Assembly: GCA_003242035.1 (NCBI GenBank)
Contig: QBMC01000008.1
Location: forward strand, 1 to 58,851
Direction: 5' to 3'
DNA: 58,851 nt
Origin: Nodosilinea foveolarum
GTDB taxonomy: Bacteria > Cyanobacteriota > Cyanobacteriia > Phormidesmidales > Phormidesmidaceae
Below, piece after piece: positions 3,232 to 12,587 of this stretch. The position numbers were made by a program, and so were the translations under genes. The notes under the pieces were generated by a model that saw only the letters and a list, made by a program, of their open reading frames with translations, did no database searches and was not told where the DNA came from. Positions within the stretch are counted from its first letter, which is position 1, and the number at the start of each line of letters is the position of its first letter.

Positions 3232-4988
3232 TTGTAGAAGTTGTGTCAAAATCCTTCCGATGCTGTTGGCCAATTCAGCTTTTAGTCATTAGGCTGCTTC
3301 CAGTGCTTTGAAGCGCGAGACTCTAGTCTTCGCTGTAGTTACATTGTTGAGGTAGTTGACCAAACGGTCGATGTTGATGGCCGTGCCAATGGCGACATTC
3401 TGTAGGTGCGTCTTTGCTAGACCACGATAGCGAGAGCGTCGCAGACCGAAGCCGCGTACGCCTTGCGAGAGCGTACCTTCGATGCCTGCTCTGCGCTTAT
3501 AGCGCTCTTTCCCTTCCGGGCTGCTGTGAACTTCTCTAGCTCGCTCCAGCGCTTTGTACTGCGCTTGCGGCAGAAAGCTTAAACTCCGCTGCGGACTACG
3601 GGTACAGCGCTCCTTAGCATCGCATCCAGAGCAGTCGAGCTTGCTAAATCTGACTTGAACGTAGGCTCTATGACCTAGCTTGACTCGTGGGTTCCAACTT
3701 ATCGAGACTTTTCTTTCAGGACAGGTAACTGTTTCGGCTGCCCAATCGATGTCAAACCGGGCTTCATCGTAGCCATCTTCTATCTTTGACTGCCAGCTAG
3801 GGTTCTTGCGGGTTGGGCCAACTAGCTCAATCTGTTGTTGTTGCGCACTCACTAGATGTTCTGCACTGACGTAAGCTGAGTCAACAAAGTGTTCTGAGGG
3901 CAGCAAGTCTCTATCCGCTAGCGCCTGATGAATGACGGCTGTGCGCTGCGCTTCGTGAACGCTCGCATCGGTAGTCTCGACATGCGTAATCAGATGGCAC
4001 TGGTCATCGTCGCAGGTCTCGCTCAGATTAACCGCATACCCTACCCAGTTCACCCCATACCGAGACCGGAAGCGAGCATCTATGTCGTAGGGTGACTCGA
4101 TGCCAGCGTTAGCACGGGGGAGTTCCTTTTTTGACTTCCACCGTACGCGCGGCGTATCGGGCGTACCAGACGCATCAGCTCTGTACTCGTAGTGGCGTTC
4201 TAGGACTATCTTGAGCGCCACTATTTTCGACAGACTCTGCCAGTTAGCGATGTCTGAGGCTTCTAAACACTTCAGCAAGTAGTAAGCATCTTCGCCGACC
4301 TGCTGACCGTAGGCGTCTTGCTTCGCCTGCGAGGTTGGTAGCCGGTAGGTCTCGACTCGGCGTTCGTAGCGTACGTACCACTCGTCGGGGGCGATCGCCG
4401 TCAGCCAGTCCGGTTCCACAGTCGCGAGTTCGTTCAGGGCTGCTCGCATCGTTTCGCCGACTAGCTCTAGCCGGTTGAGCTTGCGGATAGACGCCAGCAC
4501 TCTAGTGGCATCAGTGCGCTGCTGTCCACGCGCCTTGAGTAGTCCGTTCTCTCTGCAACAAAGCAGAAGTTTGTCCAGCAGCAGGTTCTCCTGCTTGTTC
4601 TCTATCAGGCGTTTGCGAAACTCGCTCAGAACGCTGAAGTCGAAGCCTTCGTCAGTTAGTTTTAGTCCGAGCAAGTACTTCCAGTCGATACGAGAGCGCA
4701 CTGCGTCAGCCGCTTGGCGGTCGGACAAGTTCTCTCGAAACTGCATGACCGTCACGAGGGCTAGTCTCCAGGCAGGTAGCGCAGGCTGACCTCTAGTGGC
4801 AAACAGCGCTTCGAAGTCGCTGTCCTTGAAGATGGGGCCAAGTTCGTCGCGCAGCGTCAGGTAAGGATTGCCTTTTGGAAAGGCCGCTTTAGCAACGCGA
4901 ACGGTTTCTGTCGGGACAGGTTTGATAGATTGCGGATGCAGAGACATCAGTTGCCGTTTCCATACGGATGTACACCGCTTCTACAGTA
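3232..4988 (-). mobile_element. IS1182-family insertion sequence
   Basis: One transposase gene is enclosed by imperfect terminal inverted repeats. The left end carries TGTAGAAGTTGTGTCAAAAT (from 3233). The right end, read on the minus strand from about 4987, carries TGTAGAAGCGGTGTACATCC. The outer limits are approximate and no clear target duplication could be picked out. The right end lies about 23 bp from the 3' boundary of the group II intron. Confidence 0.75.
3289..4947 (-). CDS. IS1182-family DDE transposase
   Basis: Transposase of 552 residues, full family length and without internal stops. The N-terminal region has the RQAADAVRSRIDWKYLLGL signature and then DFSVLSEFRKRL, the usual DUF772-type start of IS1182/IS5-like enzymes. 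The middle carries the RNase H-like core (HVETTDASVHEA, then HFVDSAYVSAEHL). A cysteine-rich insert (LDCSGCDAKERCTRS) follows, then the terminal RAGIEGTLSQGVRGFGLRRSRYRGL motif region with the final catalytic Glu. The element looks intact, so it may still move. The + strand frame overlapping its 3' half is a shadow. Confidence 0.92.
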   Translation of the reverse strand: MSLHPQSIKPVPTETVRVAKAAFPKGNPYLTLRDELGPIFKDSDFEALFATRGQPALPAWRLALVTVMQFRENLSDRQAADAVRSRIDWKYLLGLKLTDEGFDFSVLSEFRKRLIENKQENLLLDKLLLCCRENGLLKARGQQRTDATRVLASIRKLNRLELVGETMRAALNELATVEPDWLTAIAPDEWYVRYERRVETYRLPTSQAKQDAYGQQVGEDAYYLLKCLEASDIANWQSLSKIVALKIVLERHYEYRADASGTPDTPRVRWKSKKELPRANAGIESPYDIDARFRSRYGVNWVGYAVNLSETCDDDQCHLITHVETTDASVHEAQRTAVIHQALADRDLLPSEHFVDSAYVSAEHLVSAQQQQIELVGPTRKNPSWQSKIEDGYDEARFDIDWAAETVTCPERKVSISWNPRVKLGHRAYVQVRFSKLDCSGCDAKERCTRSPQRSLSFLPQAQYKALERAREVHSSPEGKERYKRRAGIEGTLSQGVRGFGLRRSRYRGLAKTHLQNVAIGTAINIDRLVNYLNNVTTAKTRVSRFKALEAA

Positions 4989-5011: not shown

Positions 5012-5088
5012 GTCGGGTAAGAGGGAACACGTCGCCGTGTCCCCCTCCCCTAAGAACGGCTCGTGACAGTTATCCCATCAAGCCGCTC
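5012..5088 (-). ncRNA. Group II intron domains V and VI
   Basis: Domain V is 5088 to 5054 (35 nt). GAGCGGCU pairs with AGCCGUUC, a short bulge follows, then UGAUGG pairs with CUGUCA around a GAUAA loop; the AGC triad lies at the 5' base. Domain VI follows to about 5015: a GC-rich hairpin with a GCGA loop and an unpaired A in the 3' strand (CTCTTACCC) in branch-point position. The intron then ends ...GAC at 5012. Domain V lies inside the last codons of the RT gene. Confidence 0.75.
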
Positions 5089-6456
5089 AAGCCTTTGACC
5101 ACTCAAAACCACACCCTCATTGTTGTGTAAGTAGCGATGACAGTTATGATGAAGATGAACAAGATTCTCCTCATTGTCTCTGCCGCCTTCTCTCAGAGGC
5201 AACCGATGATGGGTGTGTAAGGCTTCTCCATTGAATAAGGCATCATGACAGACTGGGCATCGCCAGTTCTGGCTCTGAGCTACCTTACGGTATTTCGAGC
5301 CGCTACCCCAATATGATTTCCCATACCGGGTTTGACGATGGAGCCAGTAGTCTTGAAGTTCTGGATTATCCGGTGAAGCCGTCCCTTTGACCTTGACATG
5401 GCGTTGAATCGGAATCCTGTTTAGACACATTAGCGTCAGCAGTTTCCGGTCGCCTACTCGGTCAGTGACGTAGGTAGAGAATGTCCACGCACGTCCTTGG
5501 AAGGTACGGTAGTACTTCCTTCTAATCCATAACTTCGACTTGTTCGGATGCCGCCGACAGCACCATTTCCAGAGTGTTCCCCAGAGCTGGTGGTCAACAT
5601 AGCCAAACACGTCTTTACTGACGCCATGTTTGTAGTAGTTGCCCCAGCCTCGCAGTATCGGGTTCAAGTGGTAAATCACTGCCGCTGGAGAGACCGAAGC
5701 GTTGTGCTTCAACCAGCTCCGTAGCCGCGCGAGGAAGGCTAACACCTTTTCCTTTTGTGGTCGGCAGAGACACTTCCCGTTATAGTGCCGAATGAAGAAA
5801 CCCAGAAATGGAAAACCCTGTTGGATATTCACTATCTGAGTCTTCTCCATATTCAGCGCTAGCCCGCGTGGTTTGAGCCACGCCTGCAAGACAGGAACAA
5901 CTGCTTCGATGTCTGCTTTGGTTTTCGCCGTCACCACGAAGTCATCTGCATAACGGCAGTAGCCGTAGGTTTGTAGCGTGCTTTTAAGCGGTGACTGATA
6001 CTTTGCCGTTGAGGAAGGCTGGTAGGTTCGAGTGGTTGTAAATGACAACAACAAGTCCTGCATCCCAGTCAAGGCAATGTTCAACAGTAGAGGCGAAAGC
6101 GGCCCACCCTGGGGCGTACCCTCAGGAGTGGCATGAAACATCTCAGCTTCTACATAGCCTGCTTTGAGCCACTGCTTAATCAGCTCTCGACCCGGCACTA
6201 AGCCGATGGTGTTGAGCAAAGAACAGTGATCTACTTTATCAAATGCACCTTTTAGATCCGCATCAAGTACCCAAGTATCGCGGCCTCCTCGAAGTCGTAG
6301 AAAACACTGCACAATGGCATCGTGACAACTACGACCCGGACGGAAGCCATAACTATGGGCCTCAAAGCGGGCCTCCCAATGGGGTTCAAGTGCATTTTTC
6401 ACTATCGTTTGGCTAACTCGATTTTCGAGCGCAGGCACAATTAGATCGAACTGCAC
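5050..6456 (-). pseudogene. Group II intron RT/maturase with HNH domain, C-terminal part (gene split by insertion)
   Basis: Carries RT motifs from domain 2 onward: SYGFRPGRSCHDAI, DADLKGAFDKVDH, GTPQGGPLSPLL, the YADD catalytic box, then GFPFLGFF. The maturase/X region and a C-terminal HNH endonuclease follow (CPVCHDALFNGE, HTHHRLPLREGG, NLVHLHHNCH). The apparent GTG start at 6456 and the first eight residues belong to the inserted element. Genuine intron coding begins at the GTGCC core (6438-6434). The missing RT domains 0-1 lie at 9122-9486. Joined in frame the two parts give about 582 residues, a full-length maturase. The ORF stop overlaps intron domain V. Confidence 0.9.
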
Positions 6457-6473
6457 AGTATCCCAACCAAGAT

Positions 6474-6731
6474 TTGGGATCTGTCACCATTACCCATCCA
6501 TTTCACCCCTACTCGGGGCAAACCTTTGAAGTTCTGAAGACTCGTCGCGTCTCAGGACGAGAGACGGTTTTGGTCAAAGGCGGCATCAGTGGGACATTTG
6601 CGATTCCTATATCTTGGACTGACAGGGTGCGGCCAATGGGCTATCAGTCCGAGTTTCGCCTTGCGCCAGATTCGTTTCAGGAGCTGTTGTCAGCCTTGAA
6701 ACGACTAGAAAGAGACTTTCAACAACATTGA
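6474..6731 (+). CDS. DUF5372-like small protein of the recombinase element
   Basis: An 85-residue protein starting TITHPFHPYSGQTFEVL, with ISWTDR near residue 48. This resembles the DUF5372 family as I remember it, whose genes often sit next to large serine recombinases. The role is unknown; it may be a recombination-directionality or regulatory protein. The residue-1 ATG at 6474 is only 36 bases inside the element's left end, so the promoter may lie in or across the junction. Confidence 0.6.
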   Translation: MGSVTITHPFHPYSGQTFEVLKTRRVSGRETVLVKGGISGTFAIPISWTDRVRPMGYQSEFRLAPDSFQELLSALKRLERDFQQH

Positions 6732-6819
6732 ACATTTCCTATGAACCCGATATGAAAGAGGCTAGACCCGTTCAGTCGAACGTGGTTCTAAGCAAAACAG
6801 TTAACAAGGGAGAGTGACA

Positions 6820-7035
6820 ATGATGGATAGAGTACCCTGTGATGCGGACTTTATTCCCTCCGTCAGCGCCATTATTGCGGAAATACTTTTGACGCATGTT
6901 GAGGCTCTCCTAAACACGAAAGGAGAGAACGATGAACGAGCCGAAAATCCATCCTGTCCACCTACAGCGCAAAGCCTATGTCTATCTGCGCCAGTCCACG
7001 ATGGGACAGGTGCGTCTGAATCGAGAGAGCACTGA
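6820..7035 (+). CDS. Small protein of the recombinase element, unknown function
   Basis: About 70 residues. The ATG at 6820 follows a good ribosome-binding site (AAGGGAGAG, 6806-6814). The first part (DRVPCDADFIPSVSAIIAEI, then LLTHVEALLN) is plausible as a short helical protein. The last third overlaps the recombinase start by 104 bases in another frame. It lies between the DUF5372-like gene and the recombinase, so it may be a partner subunit or a leader gene coupling translation. The family was not recognised. Confidence 0.45.
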   Translation: MMDRVPCDADFIPSVSAIIAEILLTHVEALLNTKGENDERAENPSCPPTAQSLCLSAPVHDGTGASESREH

Positions 7036-9016
7036 GCGGCAATATGCCTTGAAAGACCGAGCCTTAGCCCTGGGGTGGCCAGATTCCCTCATCGAGGTAC
7101 TCGATGGAGACTTAGGCCTATCGGGTAGCCAAAGCACGACTCGAAAGGACTTCCAGCTACTGGTATCTGATGTATCAATGGGCAAAGTTGGTGCCATCTT
7201 AGCGTTAGAAGCCTCTAGACTATCCCGCTCTTCGGCCGACTGGAGCCGACTTGTTGAGCTGTGTGCATTTTCAGGCGTGCTGATCATCGATGAAGATGGT
7301 TGCTATGACCCCAGTAACTTCAACGACCAATTGCTGTTGGGGCTGAAAGGCACAATGTCGCAAGCAGAGCTTCACTTTATCCGCTCTCGACTACTGGGTG
7401 GCAAACAAAACAAAGCTAAGAAAGGTGAATTACGATTTCCACTGCCTATCGGATATTGCTACGATGATCATGGTCAAACTGTCTTTGACCATGATGAGCA
7501 AGTGCGTGAGGTGGTCGAGTTATTCTTCCAAGTATTTGCCAATAAAAGGAGTGCCTATGGGGTTACTCGCTACTTTGGAGAACAGCAGATAGACTTTCCA
7601 AAGCGAGCCTATGGTGGCGTATGGAACGGAAAAATTATTTGGGGCAAGCTTACCTATGGCAGAGCGCTGACCCTACTGAAGAATCCATCTTATACGGGCG
7701 CTTATGTCTATGGTCGCTACAAAGTTGAGAAATCGCTATCGGCAGATGGTACGTTCACCTCAGGCATAAAACAACAACCTCGTGAAAGTTGGGAGGTGAT
7801 TATTCAGGAGCACCACTCTTCATATATTAGCTGGCAGACCTATCTTCAAAACCAAGACATCTTGCAAAACAATCGAACCAATGGAGCTAAAACGCTTGTG
7901 ACCAGTGCCGCCAGAGAAGGGAAAGCGCTCCTGCACGGCTTACTGATCTGTAGCAAATGTGGTCGAAGGCTGACGGTGCGCTACACAGGAAATGGTGGCC
8001 TCTGGCCGCAGTATGAGTGCAACTGGCGCAAGAAGGAAGGACTAACCGGGCGAGCCTGTCTCAATACTCGTGCTGACATCGTTGATAACGCCATCATTCC
8101 CTTAATTTTTGAAGCACTGGAGCCGCAAAAACTCGAAATCGCCCTAATGTCGCTCGATAAGCTCGAAGCGCACTATGCCAAAGTAGACAAGCAATGGCAG
8201 TTAGCATTAGAACGAGCCGAATATGAGGCGCAAATTGCACAGCGGCGCTTTGAAGAGGTAGACCCGGCTAACCGTTTAGTGGCTGCCACGCTAGAAAACC
8301 GATGGGAACAAGCACTGCTCAAAGTGCAGCAGACTAGGGAAGCCCGCTTACAACAGCGTCAAACGCAACCCCTCAACCGGATGAGTGAAACTGATAAGGC
8401 AGACCTTTTCAGGCTGGCCGAGCACTTACCTCAACTCTGGAATGCAGAACACACCCAGTCTAAGCAAAAAAAACAGGTTATTCGCTTGCTAATTGAGGAC
8501 GTTACCGTAGAACGGCACCAGCAGCCTCGGCAGCTAGCACTACATATTCGATGGAAGGGGGGAAAGCAGGAGTCCTTAACCATTCCGATTCCTCTAAAAC
8601 AGGCAGACAGAGTGCGCTACCCGGCTGAGACCATCCACAAGATTAGAGAGTTAGCCAAAACGTTTCACGACAAGAACATTGCCGATACGCTCAATCAGCT
8701 TAGTATCAAAAGCTCGTCTGGAAAACCGTTTACCTCTAGCATGGTCAAGTGGTTGCGATACAAGCATGACATCACTGTTTGTCCCACACATCGTCAAGGT
8801 GAATTAACCGTTAAACAAGTCGCTCAGAGCTATGGTGTATCCACACATATCGTTTACTACTGGATTGAAACTGGTCTCCTACAGGCACAGAGAAGTCATC
8901 GTGGCACTTATCGGATTGTTATCTCCGAATCAAAACATCAAGAGTTGACGGCCTGGGCACAGGTTCCACGAACAGAAAAAATTAGGCAAGCACGGCTTGG
9001 CCAGAGACAGCAATAA
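6932..9016 (+). CDS. Large serine recombinase
   Basis: 694 residues. The N-terminal resolvase domain has the catalytic serine in YVYLRQSTMGQV (Ser22), then EASRLSRSSADWSRLVELC (near 98) and the QAELHFIRSR helix. A recombinase domain follows (residues about 190-290, with LLKNPSYTGAYVYGR), then a zinc-ribbon of the CSKCGRRL...YECNWRKKEG type (about 340-375) and a coiled-coil stretch (about 425-480). The C-terminus adds a MerR/excisionase-like helix-turn-helix (LTVKQVAQSYGVSTHIVYYW, about 630-650). The start ATG has an excellent site (AAAGGAGAGAACG). It should catalyse integration and excision of the surrounding element by 2-bp staggered cuts. It looks intact. Confidence 0.92.
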   Translation: MNEPKIHPVHLQRKAYVYLRQSTMGQVRLNRESTERQYALKDRALALGWPDSLIEVLDGDLGLSGSQSTTRKDFQLLVSDVSMGKVGAILALEASRLSRSSADWSRLVELCAFSGVLIIDEDGCYDPSNFNDQLLLGLKGTMSQAELHFIRSRLLGGKQNKAKKGELRFPLPIGYCYDDHGQTVFDHDEQVREVVELFFQVFANKRSAYGVTRYFGEQQIDFPKRAYGGVWNGKIIWGKLTYGRALTLLKNPSYTGAYVYGRYKVEKSLSADGTFTSGIKQQPRESWEVIIQEHHSSYISWQTYLQNQDILQNNRTNGAKTLVTSAAREGKALLHGLLICSKCGRRLTVRYTGNGGLWPQYECNWRKKEGLTGRACLNTRADIVDNAIIPLIFEALEPQKLEIALMSLDKLEAHYAKVDKQWQLALERAEYEAQIAQRRFEEVDPANRLVAATLENRWEQALLKVQQTREARLQQRQTQPLNRMSETDKADLFRLAEHLPQLWNAEHTQSKQKKQVIRLLIEDVTVERHQQPRQLALHIRWKGGKQESLTIPIPLKQADRVRYPAETIHKIRELAKTFHDKNIADTLNQLSIKSSSGKPFTSSMVKWLRYKHDITVCPTHRQGELTVKQVAQSYGVSTHIVYYWIETGLLQAQRSHRGTYRIVISESKHQELTAWAQVPRTEKIRQARLGQRQQ

Positions 9017-9105
9017 ATACTCTGCCCCTTTAGTTCTCCTGTATCTTAGGAGTAGCTCAAGGGCAGGAATGCTCTATATCCCGAAAGTAAGTTGTAAAAG
9101 GTGCA

Positions 9106-9486
9106 TTATGACCACACCGTCGGCACCTTGAGCAGCCGTGTGGTTCCATCCTTTTTGGGAATCGGGACTTCCCGCAAGCCTTGGTGGTGCCAATCGAAGA
9201 CGTTGGCCGCTAGCACCTCAGCTAGTTGAAACCGTTCGTGATGCTGAAGAGAAGCTCTCCCGTCCACACCAGCGGTTCTTTTCCCCTGGTTGAGTTGGGT
9301 AACTTGTCGGACTGCCATGAGCTGGGCACATCTCGAACGAAGGAGTAACTTTTGCAAGTTCTTCGCTCTATCCGTATCCTTCGCTTGAATCGCTTTCCAG
9401 ATGCGATGTTGTAGCCGGAACAGTGCGCGTCTAAACCTTTTCCAAGGCAGCGCGTTCCAAGATTCGCTATGTCGAGTAATCGTCAT
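9106..9486 (-). pseudogene. Group II intron RT/maturase, N-terminal part (gene split by insertion)
   Basis: Codes for the start of the intron protein: WNALPWKRFRRALFRLQHRI, then KNLQKLLLRSRCAQLMAVRQ, and KRTAGVDG, the RT-0 and RT-1 signature of bacterial maturases. It ends in the IPKKDGTTRLLKVP motif and then four foreign residues (TVWS) encoded by the inserted element. Real intron coding therefore ends at the GGCAC core (9122). The remaining 460 residues are at 5050-6438. The start is ATG at 9486, in the usual position in domain IV. Confidence 0.9.
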
Positions 9487-10041
9487 GCGTCTAACCTATG
9501 GTCTACGTCATCATCGTCTGGTCTTCAGACCTCAAGCCAATTACGGCTTGTCCTAGCCGAGGGCAGGAATTGTACATCCCATCTTGCCTACTGCTAGTTC
9601 GACAGCTAGCAGACCGTACCCTCGTTTTTCTTCGTTCCTTCCAAGAGATTGTTTGACGATTTAGGGCGGTTCATTTTGCCTACCGACTTCTCAAGAGAGG
9701 TGCTGCTCAGCACTTAAATGTCAGCGAGAAATGGTCGGTGGGAGGGAAGGTAGAGATAGTCCTTCGCACTCATAATTTCAGACACTTTTCTAGAACCTGT
9801 TTACCCTTGTCGCCTCCCGTGACCGCCAGTGTGCCTATCTATCTTCGGCTCTGATTGCGACCTGGTTCCCGCTTCACTCTGTAAGATTCTGGGCTTACTC
9901 GGTGGGGACAGCCTTGGAGTCAACCCCCTCTCTGGGCGGTGGGTCTCTCACCCACATCTTTTGGAAAGTTAGACTAGCAAATGGGCTAGCCCCTCTGGTT
10001 ATCAGCAACAAGGCGGCTGTTTCGCAGAGAACGAATCGCAC
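9487..10041 (-). ncRNA. Group II intron 5' RNA region (domains I to IV start)
   Basis: 555 bases upstream of the maturase start, with no ORF. Read on the minus strand it begins GTGCGATTCGTTCTCTGCGA and is rich in short complementary GC blocks, as expected for domains I-III. A second GTGCG-like motif (GAGTGCGAAGG, near 9766) was not chosen because the outer one has the better 5' consensus and leaves room for domain I. Individual helices were not folded. Confidence 0.7.
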
Positions 10042-10042
10042 T

Positions 10043-10061
10043 AAGCGGAATTATTCTGCTT
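10043..10061 (-). repeat. Hairpin in the 5' exon immediately beside the intron
   Basis: On the minus strand AAGCAGAA-TAA-TTCCGCTT forms an 8-bp stem with one mismatch, ending one base before the intron. It may be the old terminator of the minus-strand genes upstream. Some bacterial introns insert next to such stem-loops. Confidence 0.45.
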
Positions 10062-10159
10062 AGAAAAGCTACGCGATCGCAGACTTAGTCATTTTTAGTC
10101 AACCGCAAATAATGGTCTGTTGAGCCTTGAGTAGCCGTCATCCAGCATCGCAGCGTCAC

Positions 10160-10396
10160 TCACCAAGCGGTATAGCCACGTTTCGCCCGCCGTTTCTCAA
10201 CAGCCTCAAAGATTGCCAGCCCTTCTTCGTAGCGATCGCACACAACCTCAATACACTGCCCATGCATCGCACTCATCCGACCCCAACGACGCAGTACAAC
10301 CCACTGACCAAATAGGTTCTGCCGCACCTCACAGGAATAGTGCTTCGAGTTCTTCCGCCAGTCTTGCCGCTTCCATTTGTCTAACTGATACCCCAT
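10160..10396 (-). CDS. WGR-domain-like small protein
   Basis: 78 residues. The pattern YSCEVRQNLFGQWVVLRRWG, followed by R, then a stretch ending in FEAVEKRRAKRGY, matches the WGR domain. That is a small fold named for its Trp-Gly-Arg and is thought to bind nucleic acid ends. The protein is little more than the domain. It lies 9 bases after the 238-codon gene on the same strand, so the three minus genes 10160-11630 likely form one transcript, ending near the hairpin by the intron. Its cellular role on the plasmid is unknown. Confidence 0.7.
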   Translation of the reverse strand: MGYQLDKWKRQDWRKNSKHYSCEVRQNLFGQWVVLRRWGRMSAMHGQCIEVVCDRYEEGLAIFEAVEKRRAKRGYTAW

Positions 10397-10405
10397 GCTT
10401 AAGCC

Positions 10406-11071
10406 TCACCGACACCTGCTCACCCAAACTTCCTGCGTTTGGTAAAAGCTGCCGCGCTGCTCCATCGGAAAGCCACCGAGCAGCGCGGCGATCCACACCT
10501 CCACCATCGGCATCTTCAACCGCCTTTGCAGATCAACCAATCGCTGCGGCTCGTCCGTCTGCCCATCGGTCAATACCTTCACCCAGTCAGATACGTTTTC
10601 GGCATGGGAAACGGCCAATGCCTGACTTTTCAAATCAGTATCCTCCAGCGCGTCGATCATATCCAAGACCGACAGCTTCCCTACATCACCTGCAACAGAA
10701 TCGTCATCGCTTTTATCCTCCTCGCCTGTGCGATCGCCCCCCGTCTTATAAGAACGACTCACCAAATCAGAAAAGTCCAGCTCCTGCGTCTGCCGGGTCA
10801 GCCCTTGCAGCCAGTCATCCCCCATCACCGGCTCCTCAGCATTATGCGCGTCCTGCCAATCCTCCCAAAGCACATCAGCCTTCGCCTCGAAAATTCCTGC
10901 GAGCTGCCCCAAAAAATCACCCGCGATCCTAAGCTGATCGCGCCGACCCAACCCATCTATCTCCCCTTCAAACCGCGCCCAAAGACTCAGCACATCCGCC
11001 CGCTCTGGAACCTCAGCCGCTTCTTCCAAAGCAACTCCCAAGTTCAGCTCTAACTGACGCACACTAACCAC
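10406..11071 (-). CDS. Hypothetical plasmid protein
   Basis: About 221 residues from the GTG at 11071, chosen because a strong GGGAGGAGG site lies just upstream and the start overlaps the preceding stop by 8 bases. A longer ATG start at 11122 is possible but would overlap more. The protein is acidic and soluble, with a charged low-complexity middle (GEEDKSDDDSVAGD), no membrane segment and no motif I recognise. Position suggests co-expression with the zinc-finger-like and WGR proteins. Two long plus-strand frames over this gene are shadows. Confidence 0.7.
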   Translation of the reverse strand: MVSVRQLELNLGVALEEAAEVPERADVLSLWARFEGEIDGLGRRDQLRIAGDFLGQLAGIFEAKADVLWEDWQDAHNAEEPVMGDDWLQGLTRQTQELDFSDLVSRSYKTGGDRTGEEDKSDDDSVAGDVGKLSVLDMIDALEDTDLKSQALAVSHAENVSDWVKVLTDGQTDEPQRLVDLQRRLKMPMVEVWIAALLGGFPMEQRGSFYQTQEVWVSRCR

Positions 11072-11630
11072 CGTGCCCTCCTCCCAGCAAATCGATCTGC
11101 TCCAGCGAAGCGTCTTCCTCAACCTTTAATGAACAACCTTGAATAGAACACTCAATCGGTTCCAGTCGAACCTCATTAGCAAAAAAAGTAATGCCAAACC
11201 GCGCCTTCAGATAACCCATCACATCTTTTTGAACGTACTTCTCTAGCGATCGCTTACGGAGGCCCGCACAGTGAATCGGTTTAATTTCCAGCACTTTGGA
11301 ACTGCCTTGAAACACAGAAGCTGAGATCGCATGAACCGGCGCATCCTTCCGCTTCTCTCGCCAAATGTACAGCGTTGCATAAGGCGTCATATCTTCTGCG
11401 ATCGCCAACGAAACCTCTTCAACGACCCGCTGAGCAGGTGCGTCCTCCACCTCCCGATAAGCAGAGCGCCGCTTTTCATTCACCTCCAGCCGGTTGCGAT
11501 AGTGAGAACGCCGACGACGGCAGCGACTTTCAACCCAGCAACCATCGCCCTCCGGCCCATGTAGCTGCTGTGCCACTGGCGCACTGAGCCGAGCGCACTC
11601 CACGCACTTTTTACTAATCCTACGAGGCAT
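11064..11630 (-). CDS. Hypothetical protein with N-terminal Cys/Arg-rich region
   Basis: 188 residues. The N-terminus has a CxxC pair (KKCVECARL) followed by two more cysteines (GCWVESRC) and a very basic run (RRRRSHYRNR), which may form a zinc-binding, nucleic-acid-binding element. The rest is mixed alpha/beta with ATLYIWREKRKDAPVHAISA and a C-terminal GGGHGG. It is first in a three-gene minus-strand unit. A 66-codon frame overlapping its start is not supported. Family not recognised. Confidence 0.65.
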   Translation of the reverse strand: MPRRISKKCVECARLSAPVAQQLHGPEGDGCWVESRCRRRRSHYRNRLEVNEKRRSAYREVEDAPAQRVVEEVSLAIAEDMTPYATLYIWREKRKDAPVHAISASVFQGSSKVLEIKPIHCAGLRKRSLEKYVQKDVMGYLKARFGITFFANEVRLEPIECSIQGCSLKVEEDASLEQIDLLGGGHGG

Positions 11631-11969
11631 CGGCCCAACCCCTCAAAAGCCTTGCTATCGCTGCACTTACCATAACGCAACTCGCTCTAGTAAATTCGTA
11701 GCGTAACATTTAGTGTAACAGCCCCTCCCCTCCAGACCCCCGATTCCTGGTATACATTATGTATATAGAACTCTGATTTTCTGTCGCACTCGCAGTCAGT
11801 TGGTATTGTCTATAGGCGATCGCCCTCCGCCTCTGTAAGCTGCTTGGGTAGGGCGATCTCAAATAATCTAAGAGGCTTGCATAAAACCAATAAACCAAAC
11901 AATACTTGAGTTATTGGTTTTATGGTTAAATGGTTTTAGAGATACCAATAAACCATTTAACCAATATTT
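11631..11969. promoter_or_regulatory. Divergent control region upstream of parA1, with parS/operator-like repeats
   Basis: 339 bases with no gene. The 3' part is AT-rich and built of ACCAATAA/TTATTGGT-type motifs. A perfect 14-bp inverted repeat, TGGTTAAATGGTTT (11923-11936) and AAACCATTTAACCA (11950-11963), ends 6 bases before the parA1 start. It contains the same 8-bp family as the arrays at 12593-12648 and 12992-13039, so it is a probable operator or partition site. The 5' part should hold the promoter of the minus-strand genes. Confidence 0.65.
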
Positions 11970-12587
11970 ATGAAAACAGTCAGTTTCGTATCGAAAAAAG
12001 GCGGTGTGGGAAAAACCACTTCTGCCATACATTTCGCTTATTGGTTGGCCATCAATGGTTATGCCGTCGTGCTAGTAGACGATGACAACAACCGCACGGC
12101 TACTAATTGGGCCGAACGTGCCGAATCTAACCCTAAGTTTGATGTTCCTTTCAAGATTGTCAGCTTTAGAGCCATGTCTAAAGCTATTGGTGGCGCAGAC
12201 TACGTTGTAATTGATTCACAAGCAAGTCACACGGACGATGATCTTAAAGATTTTGCAGAAGACTGTAATTTAGTCATTATTCCAACTAAGGCAGATATCT
12301 CTAGTGCTAGAGCGGCGACAGAGACAGCCGATGCAATCGTTAACTCTAACGGCCAGTATAAAATCCTAATTGCAGATGCACCTGGCTACAACAAGAATGC
12401 AAAAGAGCTAAGAGACGATCTTGTAGAGTCTGGCTATTCCGTCTTTGCAAAAGCGATTCGTCGCGGAGAGGGTGTTAATCACGCAGCTCTAAATGGCAAC
12501 ACTCTGGCTCAAATGACCGGAAAGTATAAGATGCCGTGGCGAGACTACGAAACGGTATTCAGCGAAATTTCTGAGTTAATAGCTTAA
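11970..12587 (+). CDS. parA: ParA-family partition ATPase, locus 1
   Basis: 205 residues, the short (type Ib) ParA without an N-terminal DNA-binding domain. The deviant Walker A is SKKGGVGKTT (residues 8-17), Walker A' is VVLVDDDNNRTATNW (about 33-47), and the Walker B-like strand is YVVIDSQAS (about 75-83). It should bind nucleoid DNA with ATP and position the plasmid. A small ParB-like gene follows, separated by a 7-copy repeat array. Further repeats lie upstream and downstream, so the locus is a complete parABS. A second, divergent ParA is at 50227. Confidence 0.88.
   Translation: MKTVSFVSKKGGVGKTTSAIHFAYWLAINGYAVVLVDDDNNRTATNWAERAESNPKFDVPFKIVSFRAMSKAIGGADYVVIDSQASHTDDDLKDFAEDCNLVIIPTKADISSARAATETADAIVNSNGQYKILIADAPGYNKNAKELRDDLVESGYSVFAKAIRRGEGVNHAALNGNTLAQMTGKYKMPWRDYETVFSEISELIA

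Follow-up and report, generated by a model that had tools for sequence, protein, structure and literature searches.

The reverse transcriptase (RT) gene of a group II intron (5012..10041, minus strand) is split by a small serine-recombinase element in the window, the whole 58,851-nucleotide stretch of Nodosilinea foveolarum DNA analysed. As judged from sequence comparison, and with a probability of about 0.88, this is a small mobile element whose recombinase would integrate a circular form into an attB site in a conserved RT motif; its excision would be precise and would leave an in-frame RT, and the two RT halves that flank it here are of mixed origin. The recombinase would recombine the attP of the circular form with attB in the RT gene, the latter being the codons of the motif R-P-L-G-I-P-T-x-x-D-R of group II intron RTs. 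Crossover would take place at the CC with which the Pro codon begins, and this core would fix the orientation of the inserted element.

The intron runs from 10041 to 5012 on the minus strand and is 2,342 nt long without the nested element. Its domain V-VI RNA was matched by Rfam RF00029 at 5090-5012 (minus) in a narrow search, with 40.5 bits against a cut-off of 40; the family was absent from a faster scan of the whole window at the gathering threshold. Homology to the introns of other genomes begins exactly at 10041 and mostly stops at most 2 nt from 5012, so the bounds are independently supported by the RNA match and by the limits of homology. The intron ORF encodes RT and maturase domains (RVT_N, RVT_1, GIIM and HNH), in keeping with a group II intron. 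The N-terminal half of the RT (9109..9486, minus) carries RVT_N (PF13655, 8.7e-30); its RT-derived portion stops at the core at 9122-9123, and its final residues are encoded by the element. The C-terminal half (5050..6456, minus) carries RVT_1 (PF00078), the GIIM maturase domain (PF08388) and HNH (PF01844), and its RT-derived portion begins at the core at 6434-6435. The element sits in the intron ORF, outside the ribozyme core, and splicing might persist with a maturase supplied in trans. The recombinase, RT and RF00029 matches agree with the initial annotation, which had placed a serine-recombinase element inside a group II intron.

The nested element occupies 6436..9123 (plus strand), 2,688 bp counting one core, as delimited by comparison with relatives. 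It carries a DUF5372 (Y4bD/Y4pK-like) gene at 6474..6731 (plus; PF17342, 4.5e-14) and, at 6932..9016 (plus), a large serine recombinase of 694 amino acids that is present as a single copy in the genome. The resolvase catalytic (PF00239), recombinase (PF07508) and zinc ribbon (PF13408) domains of the large serine recombinases were all found above cut-off; a Y-L-R-Q-S motif lies near the N-terminus, and the C-terminus has an HTH-like segment with weak HTH_17/MerR matches. A short ORF overlapping the recombinase start (6814..7035, plus) is located where relatives carry DUF6788; it has no family match and may not be a gene. DUF6788 itself was found in the elements at L036 and L039. DUF5372 and DUF6788 are candidates for a directionality factor.

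The core dinucleotide is GG on the plus strand at both ends (left, 6434..6435; right, 9122..9123) and corresponds to CC at positions 1 and 2 of the Pro codon in the conserved RT motif. The cores and the left attachment arm, CACAATTAGATCGAACTGCAC (21 nt, 6436..6456, plus), were defined by comparison with relatives. The right arm, GTGCATTATGACCACACCGTC (21 nt, 9101..9121, plus), is conserved in relatives, and the right-end pattern co-occurs with the recombinase: in two draws of 386 and 64 genomes it was confined to recombinase-bearing genomes (G000, G020, G370 and G438), and the reversed control gave 0 matches in the same draws. Read in the RT sense, the N-side end is CC followed by GACGGTGTGGTCATAATGCAC and the C-side end is GTGCAGTTCGATCTAATTGTG followed by CC, so the predicted circular attP is GTGCAGTTCGATCTAATTGTG-CC-GACGGTGTGGTCATAATGCAC, two 21-nt arms around a CC core. 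The attP arms match each other at 10-15 of 21 positions, and the symmetry of attB is maximal when centred on the core (98/273, versus 53-74 for shifted centres). The sites thus have a 2-bp core, half-symmetric arms and an orientation fixed by the core, with one mismatched core in L042. A 5-bp repeat, GGCAC, had been pointed out at the two junctions. The pentamer is present at 6434-6438 and 9122-9126 with a spacing of 2,688 bp, but the true repeat is just GG: relatives share only GG or CC, and the remaining three bases agree by chance, the CAC at 6436-6438 belonging to the 21-nt arm of the element and the CAC at 9124-9126 to the RT gene. The ends of homologous elements, on which the earlier proposal had been made to depend, are not clearly different; the 21-nt arms and the core are shared.

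The RT halves on the two sides of the element have different closest relatives. The N-half is 72% identical in amino acids to the uninterrupted RT L064 from a congeneric genome (G059), but the C-half of L064 reaches just 28%. The C-half matches another uninterrupted intron (86-87%), with 86% identity to RT L069 (G016), whose N-half reaches just 36%; across RT sequences in G016, G054, G007 and G055 the C-half values are 86-89%. Identity at the DNA level switches at the core, and homology of the C-half starts at the core base itself. Trees of the N-half and the C-half give the window different partners, with support of 0.999 (N) and 0.96-1.0 (C). The element here links the 5' part of one intron to the 3' part of a different one. 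Because the halves come from different intron lineages, excision here would give a chimeric RT and not the ancestral one; of the exact repair on removal that had been claimed, the precise in-frame join holds, but the restoration of an ancestral RT does not. Mixed ancestry was seen in this one draft genome only (299 contigs). Both halves match the same uninterrupted RTs in the other cyanobacterial elements compared (L043, L046, L065 and L066), and the Caballeronia case described below concerns a single intron, so mixed ancestry is not the rule. The same element end was found in the same C-half type in G055 (L068), which indicates an earlier association of the element with this intron type.

The simplest route to the joined halves would be recombination between copies of the element residing in two introns. 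An exchange by the recombinase itself, acting on the att sites of two introns, is a lesser though real possibility: the breakpoint coincides with the core within resolution, but homologous recombination anywhere in the element yields an identical outcome, and serine integrases normally recombine attP with attB, other pairs needing a directionality factor (PMC3783163). It is rather unlikely that the mixed ancestry is an assembly error, in which the copies of the element from two introns were collapsed into one and wrongly joined. The fragmentation of the draft would allow for such an error, and two contigs of G055 end at the element core or no more than about 60 bp from it (L135:1, L068:1-60), which would fit the presence of several copies of the element or the intron half. 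However, the present genome has a single recombinase, one N-half and one C-half of these types, the reciprocal halves are absent from it, and one 58.8-kb contig spans the arrangement.

The in-frame rejoining of the RT put forward in the initial annotation was reproduced, the joined flanks encoding a 582-aa RT that reads RLLKVPALENRV at the junction. Both ends are readable in 13 elements, and removal leaves a long open RT frame in 12 of them; in L047, the remaining one, a different frame is the longest across the site, yet the site is in frame at the motif and reads L-R-R-L-G-I-P-T-V-A-D-R when translated by eye. An empty-site RT matching the predicted join, which had been asked for, does exist. 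Plasmid pSBC2-3 of Caballeronia sp. SBC2 holds occupied and uninterrupted copies of one intron, and the occupied copy minus the element aligns with the intact copy over 2,038 bp at 99.4% identity, without gaps across the junction. The core on the recombinase strand is GG in 10 elements, all opposite to the RT, and CC in 3 (L042, L047 and L048), all parallel to it, the pattern predicted for recombination across a dinucleotide that is not palindromic. The two ends of L042 differ, CC against TC, and its recombinase match is broken in two; the TC end may be a later mutation.

A precise in-frame join would also be produced by a programmed excision element of the fdxN/XisF or skin kind, whose conditional removal would here switch the intron protein on, a possibility that the initial annotation had also raised, and XisF is the closest NCBIfam model. 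The fdxN element of heterocystous cyanobacteria shares with the present one a cyanobacterial large serine recombinase and a position within a gene. Nevertheless, programmed excision is very improbable: the recombinase scores 96.6 bits, far below the XisF equivalog cut-off of 375, developmental excision is not indicated, and no sign of regulation was found. Furthermore, the host gene is itself part of a mobile element, the halves derive from different introns, and occupied introns belong to many lineages across phyla.

Related recombinases were found at the same RT codons in other genomes, as had been anticipated. The 14 further relatives (L035, L037-L048 and an element end in L068) share the insertion point x-L-G-I^P-T-x-x-D-R and span cyanobacteria, alpha- and betaproteobacteria and Streptomyces, that is, three phyla. 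The closest, in Adonisia turfae, is 80% identical and adjoins the RT N-half of another intron, cut at the same codon. Relatives with 40-53% identity at this codon occur in Caballeronia, Paraburkholderia, Cupriavidus, Microvirga, Nostoc and Aulosira, in two further cyanobacterial genomes and on two Streptomyces plasmids. An ordinary transposon inserting at random, with the RT site a matter of chance, can be dismissed as a reading: distant relatives do lie in other genes, e.g. in an IS21 element, but one clade contributes 15 elements that all interrupt the RT at a single codon, with arms and core in common, in hosts from three phyla. The conserved protein motif would keep attB similar enough for insertion into very different introns, and the intron's own gene as target would probably be a mobile landing site that is dispensable to the host.

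The recombinases of the RT site form one clade in the tree, with L036 (1102-1738) within it. L036 is located at a PD-(D/E)XK transposase gene instead, and the target of the clade can therefore change; the core at its left end is apparently TC/GA. No RT adjoins the lower-identity cyanobacterial relatives (L007-L034, about 32-42%). No close relatives were found in viral contigs, and phage matches are distant only. A second related lineage (Pseudomonas mandelii, L052:5600-5932, and Cupriavidus sp. KK10, L055:6980-7309, respectively) also adjoins cut RT genes, which are cut elsewhere, near a conserved D-L-x-x-F-(F)-D motif. A more distant relative (L051:522-6312) seems to interrupt an IS21 element, flanked by istB and, at its opposite end, by a fragment of istA.

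The splitting of genes by site-specific serine recombinases is well known. The element resembles the phiC31, Bxb1, TndX and CcrA/B integrase systems in domain order, 2-bp central core, half-symmetric attP, core-fixed orientation and a split protein-coding target gene. Unlike them, it targets an RT gene that belongs to another mobile element, and it is small, carrying DUF5372 but neither phage nor conjugation genes. In the Y4bD/Y4pK-DUF6788-recombinase elements of rhizobia and others, a DUF5372 gene likewise precedes a related recombinase (about 34-50% identical); unlike here, the distant ones lie in other genes. DUF5372 (PF17342) is found upstream of the recombinase as in that type, and no intervening DUF6788 could be recognised in the window. 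The open-access papers searched yielded no account of these elements. A nested insertion, with one mobile element inside a gene of another, has been demonstrated for Tn1806 in ICESa2603-family elements (PMC12942858), where a serine-integrase element likewise occupies a conserved gene of its host element; there the host is a large conjugative element and the target is snf2, whereas here a 2.7-kb element is found in the RT gene of a group II intron. No earlier account of a family devoted to the RT genes of group II introns was found in the open-access papers searched, and the main text of Durrant et al. (PMC10083194) makes no mention of reverse transcriptase. This absence is weak evidence of novelty.

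In this arrangement, found in three phyla, one selfish element relies on a protein motif that is conserved in a second. It is a source of new integrases whose predicted attP/attB pairs are open to direct testing, and of natural core variants that flip the orientation. A broader proposal is offered only tentatively: a widespread clade specialised on group II intron RTs could act as an exchange point at which occupied introns swap halves and excision yields in-frame chimeras. This would be a possible route for group II introns to exchange halves, and it bears on the mixing of intron and RT lineages.

Several other features were noted around the intron. An IS1182-family transposase (3289-4947) lies 64 bp past the intron 3' end, and IS1182-like sequence is found near the intron end in G055 (L068) as well, in the opposite orientation. 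The region upstream of the intron (10042-11700) has several diverged copies in the genome (86% on C289, 74% on C105), and the C289 copy of this 5' flank diverges about 340 bp before the intron. An ORF for a ParA-like ATPase is located at 11970-12587 and suggests, from its sequence, plasmid-like DNA.
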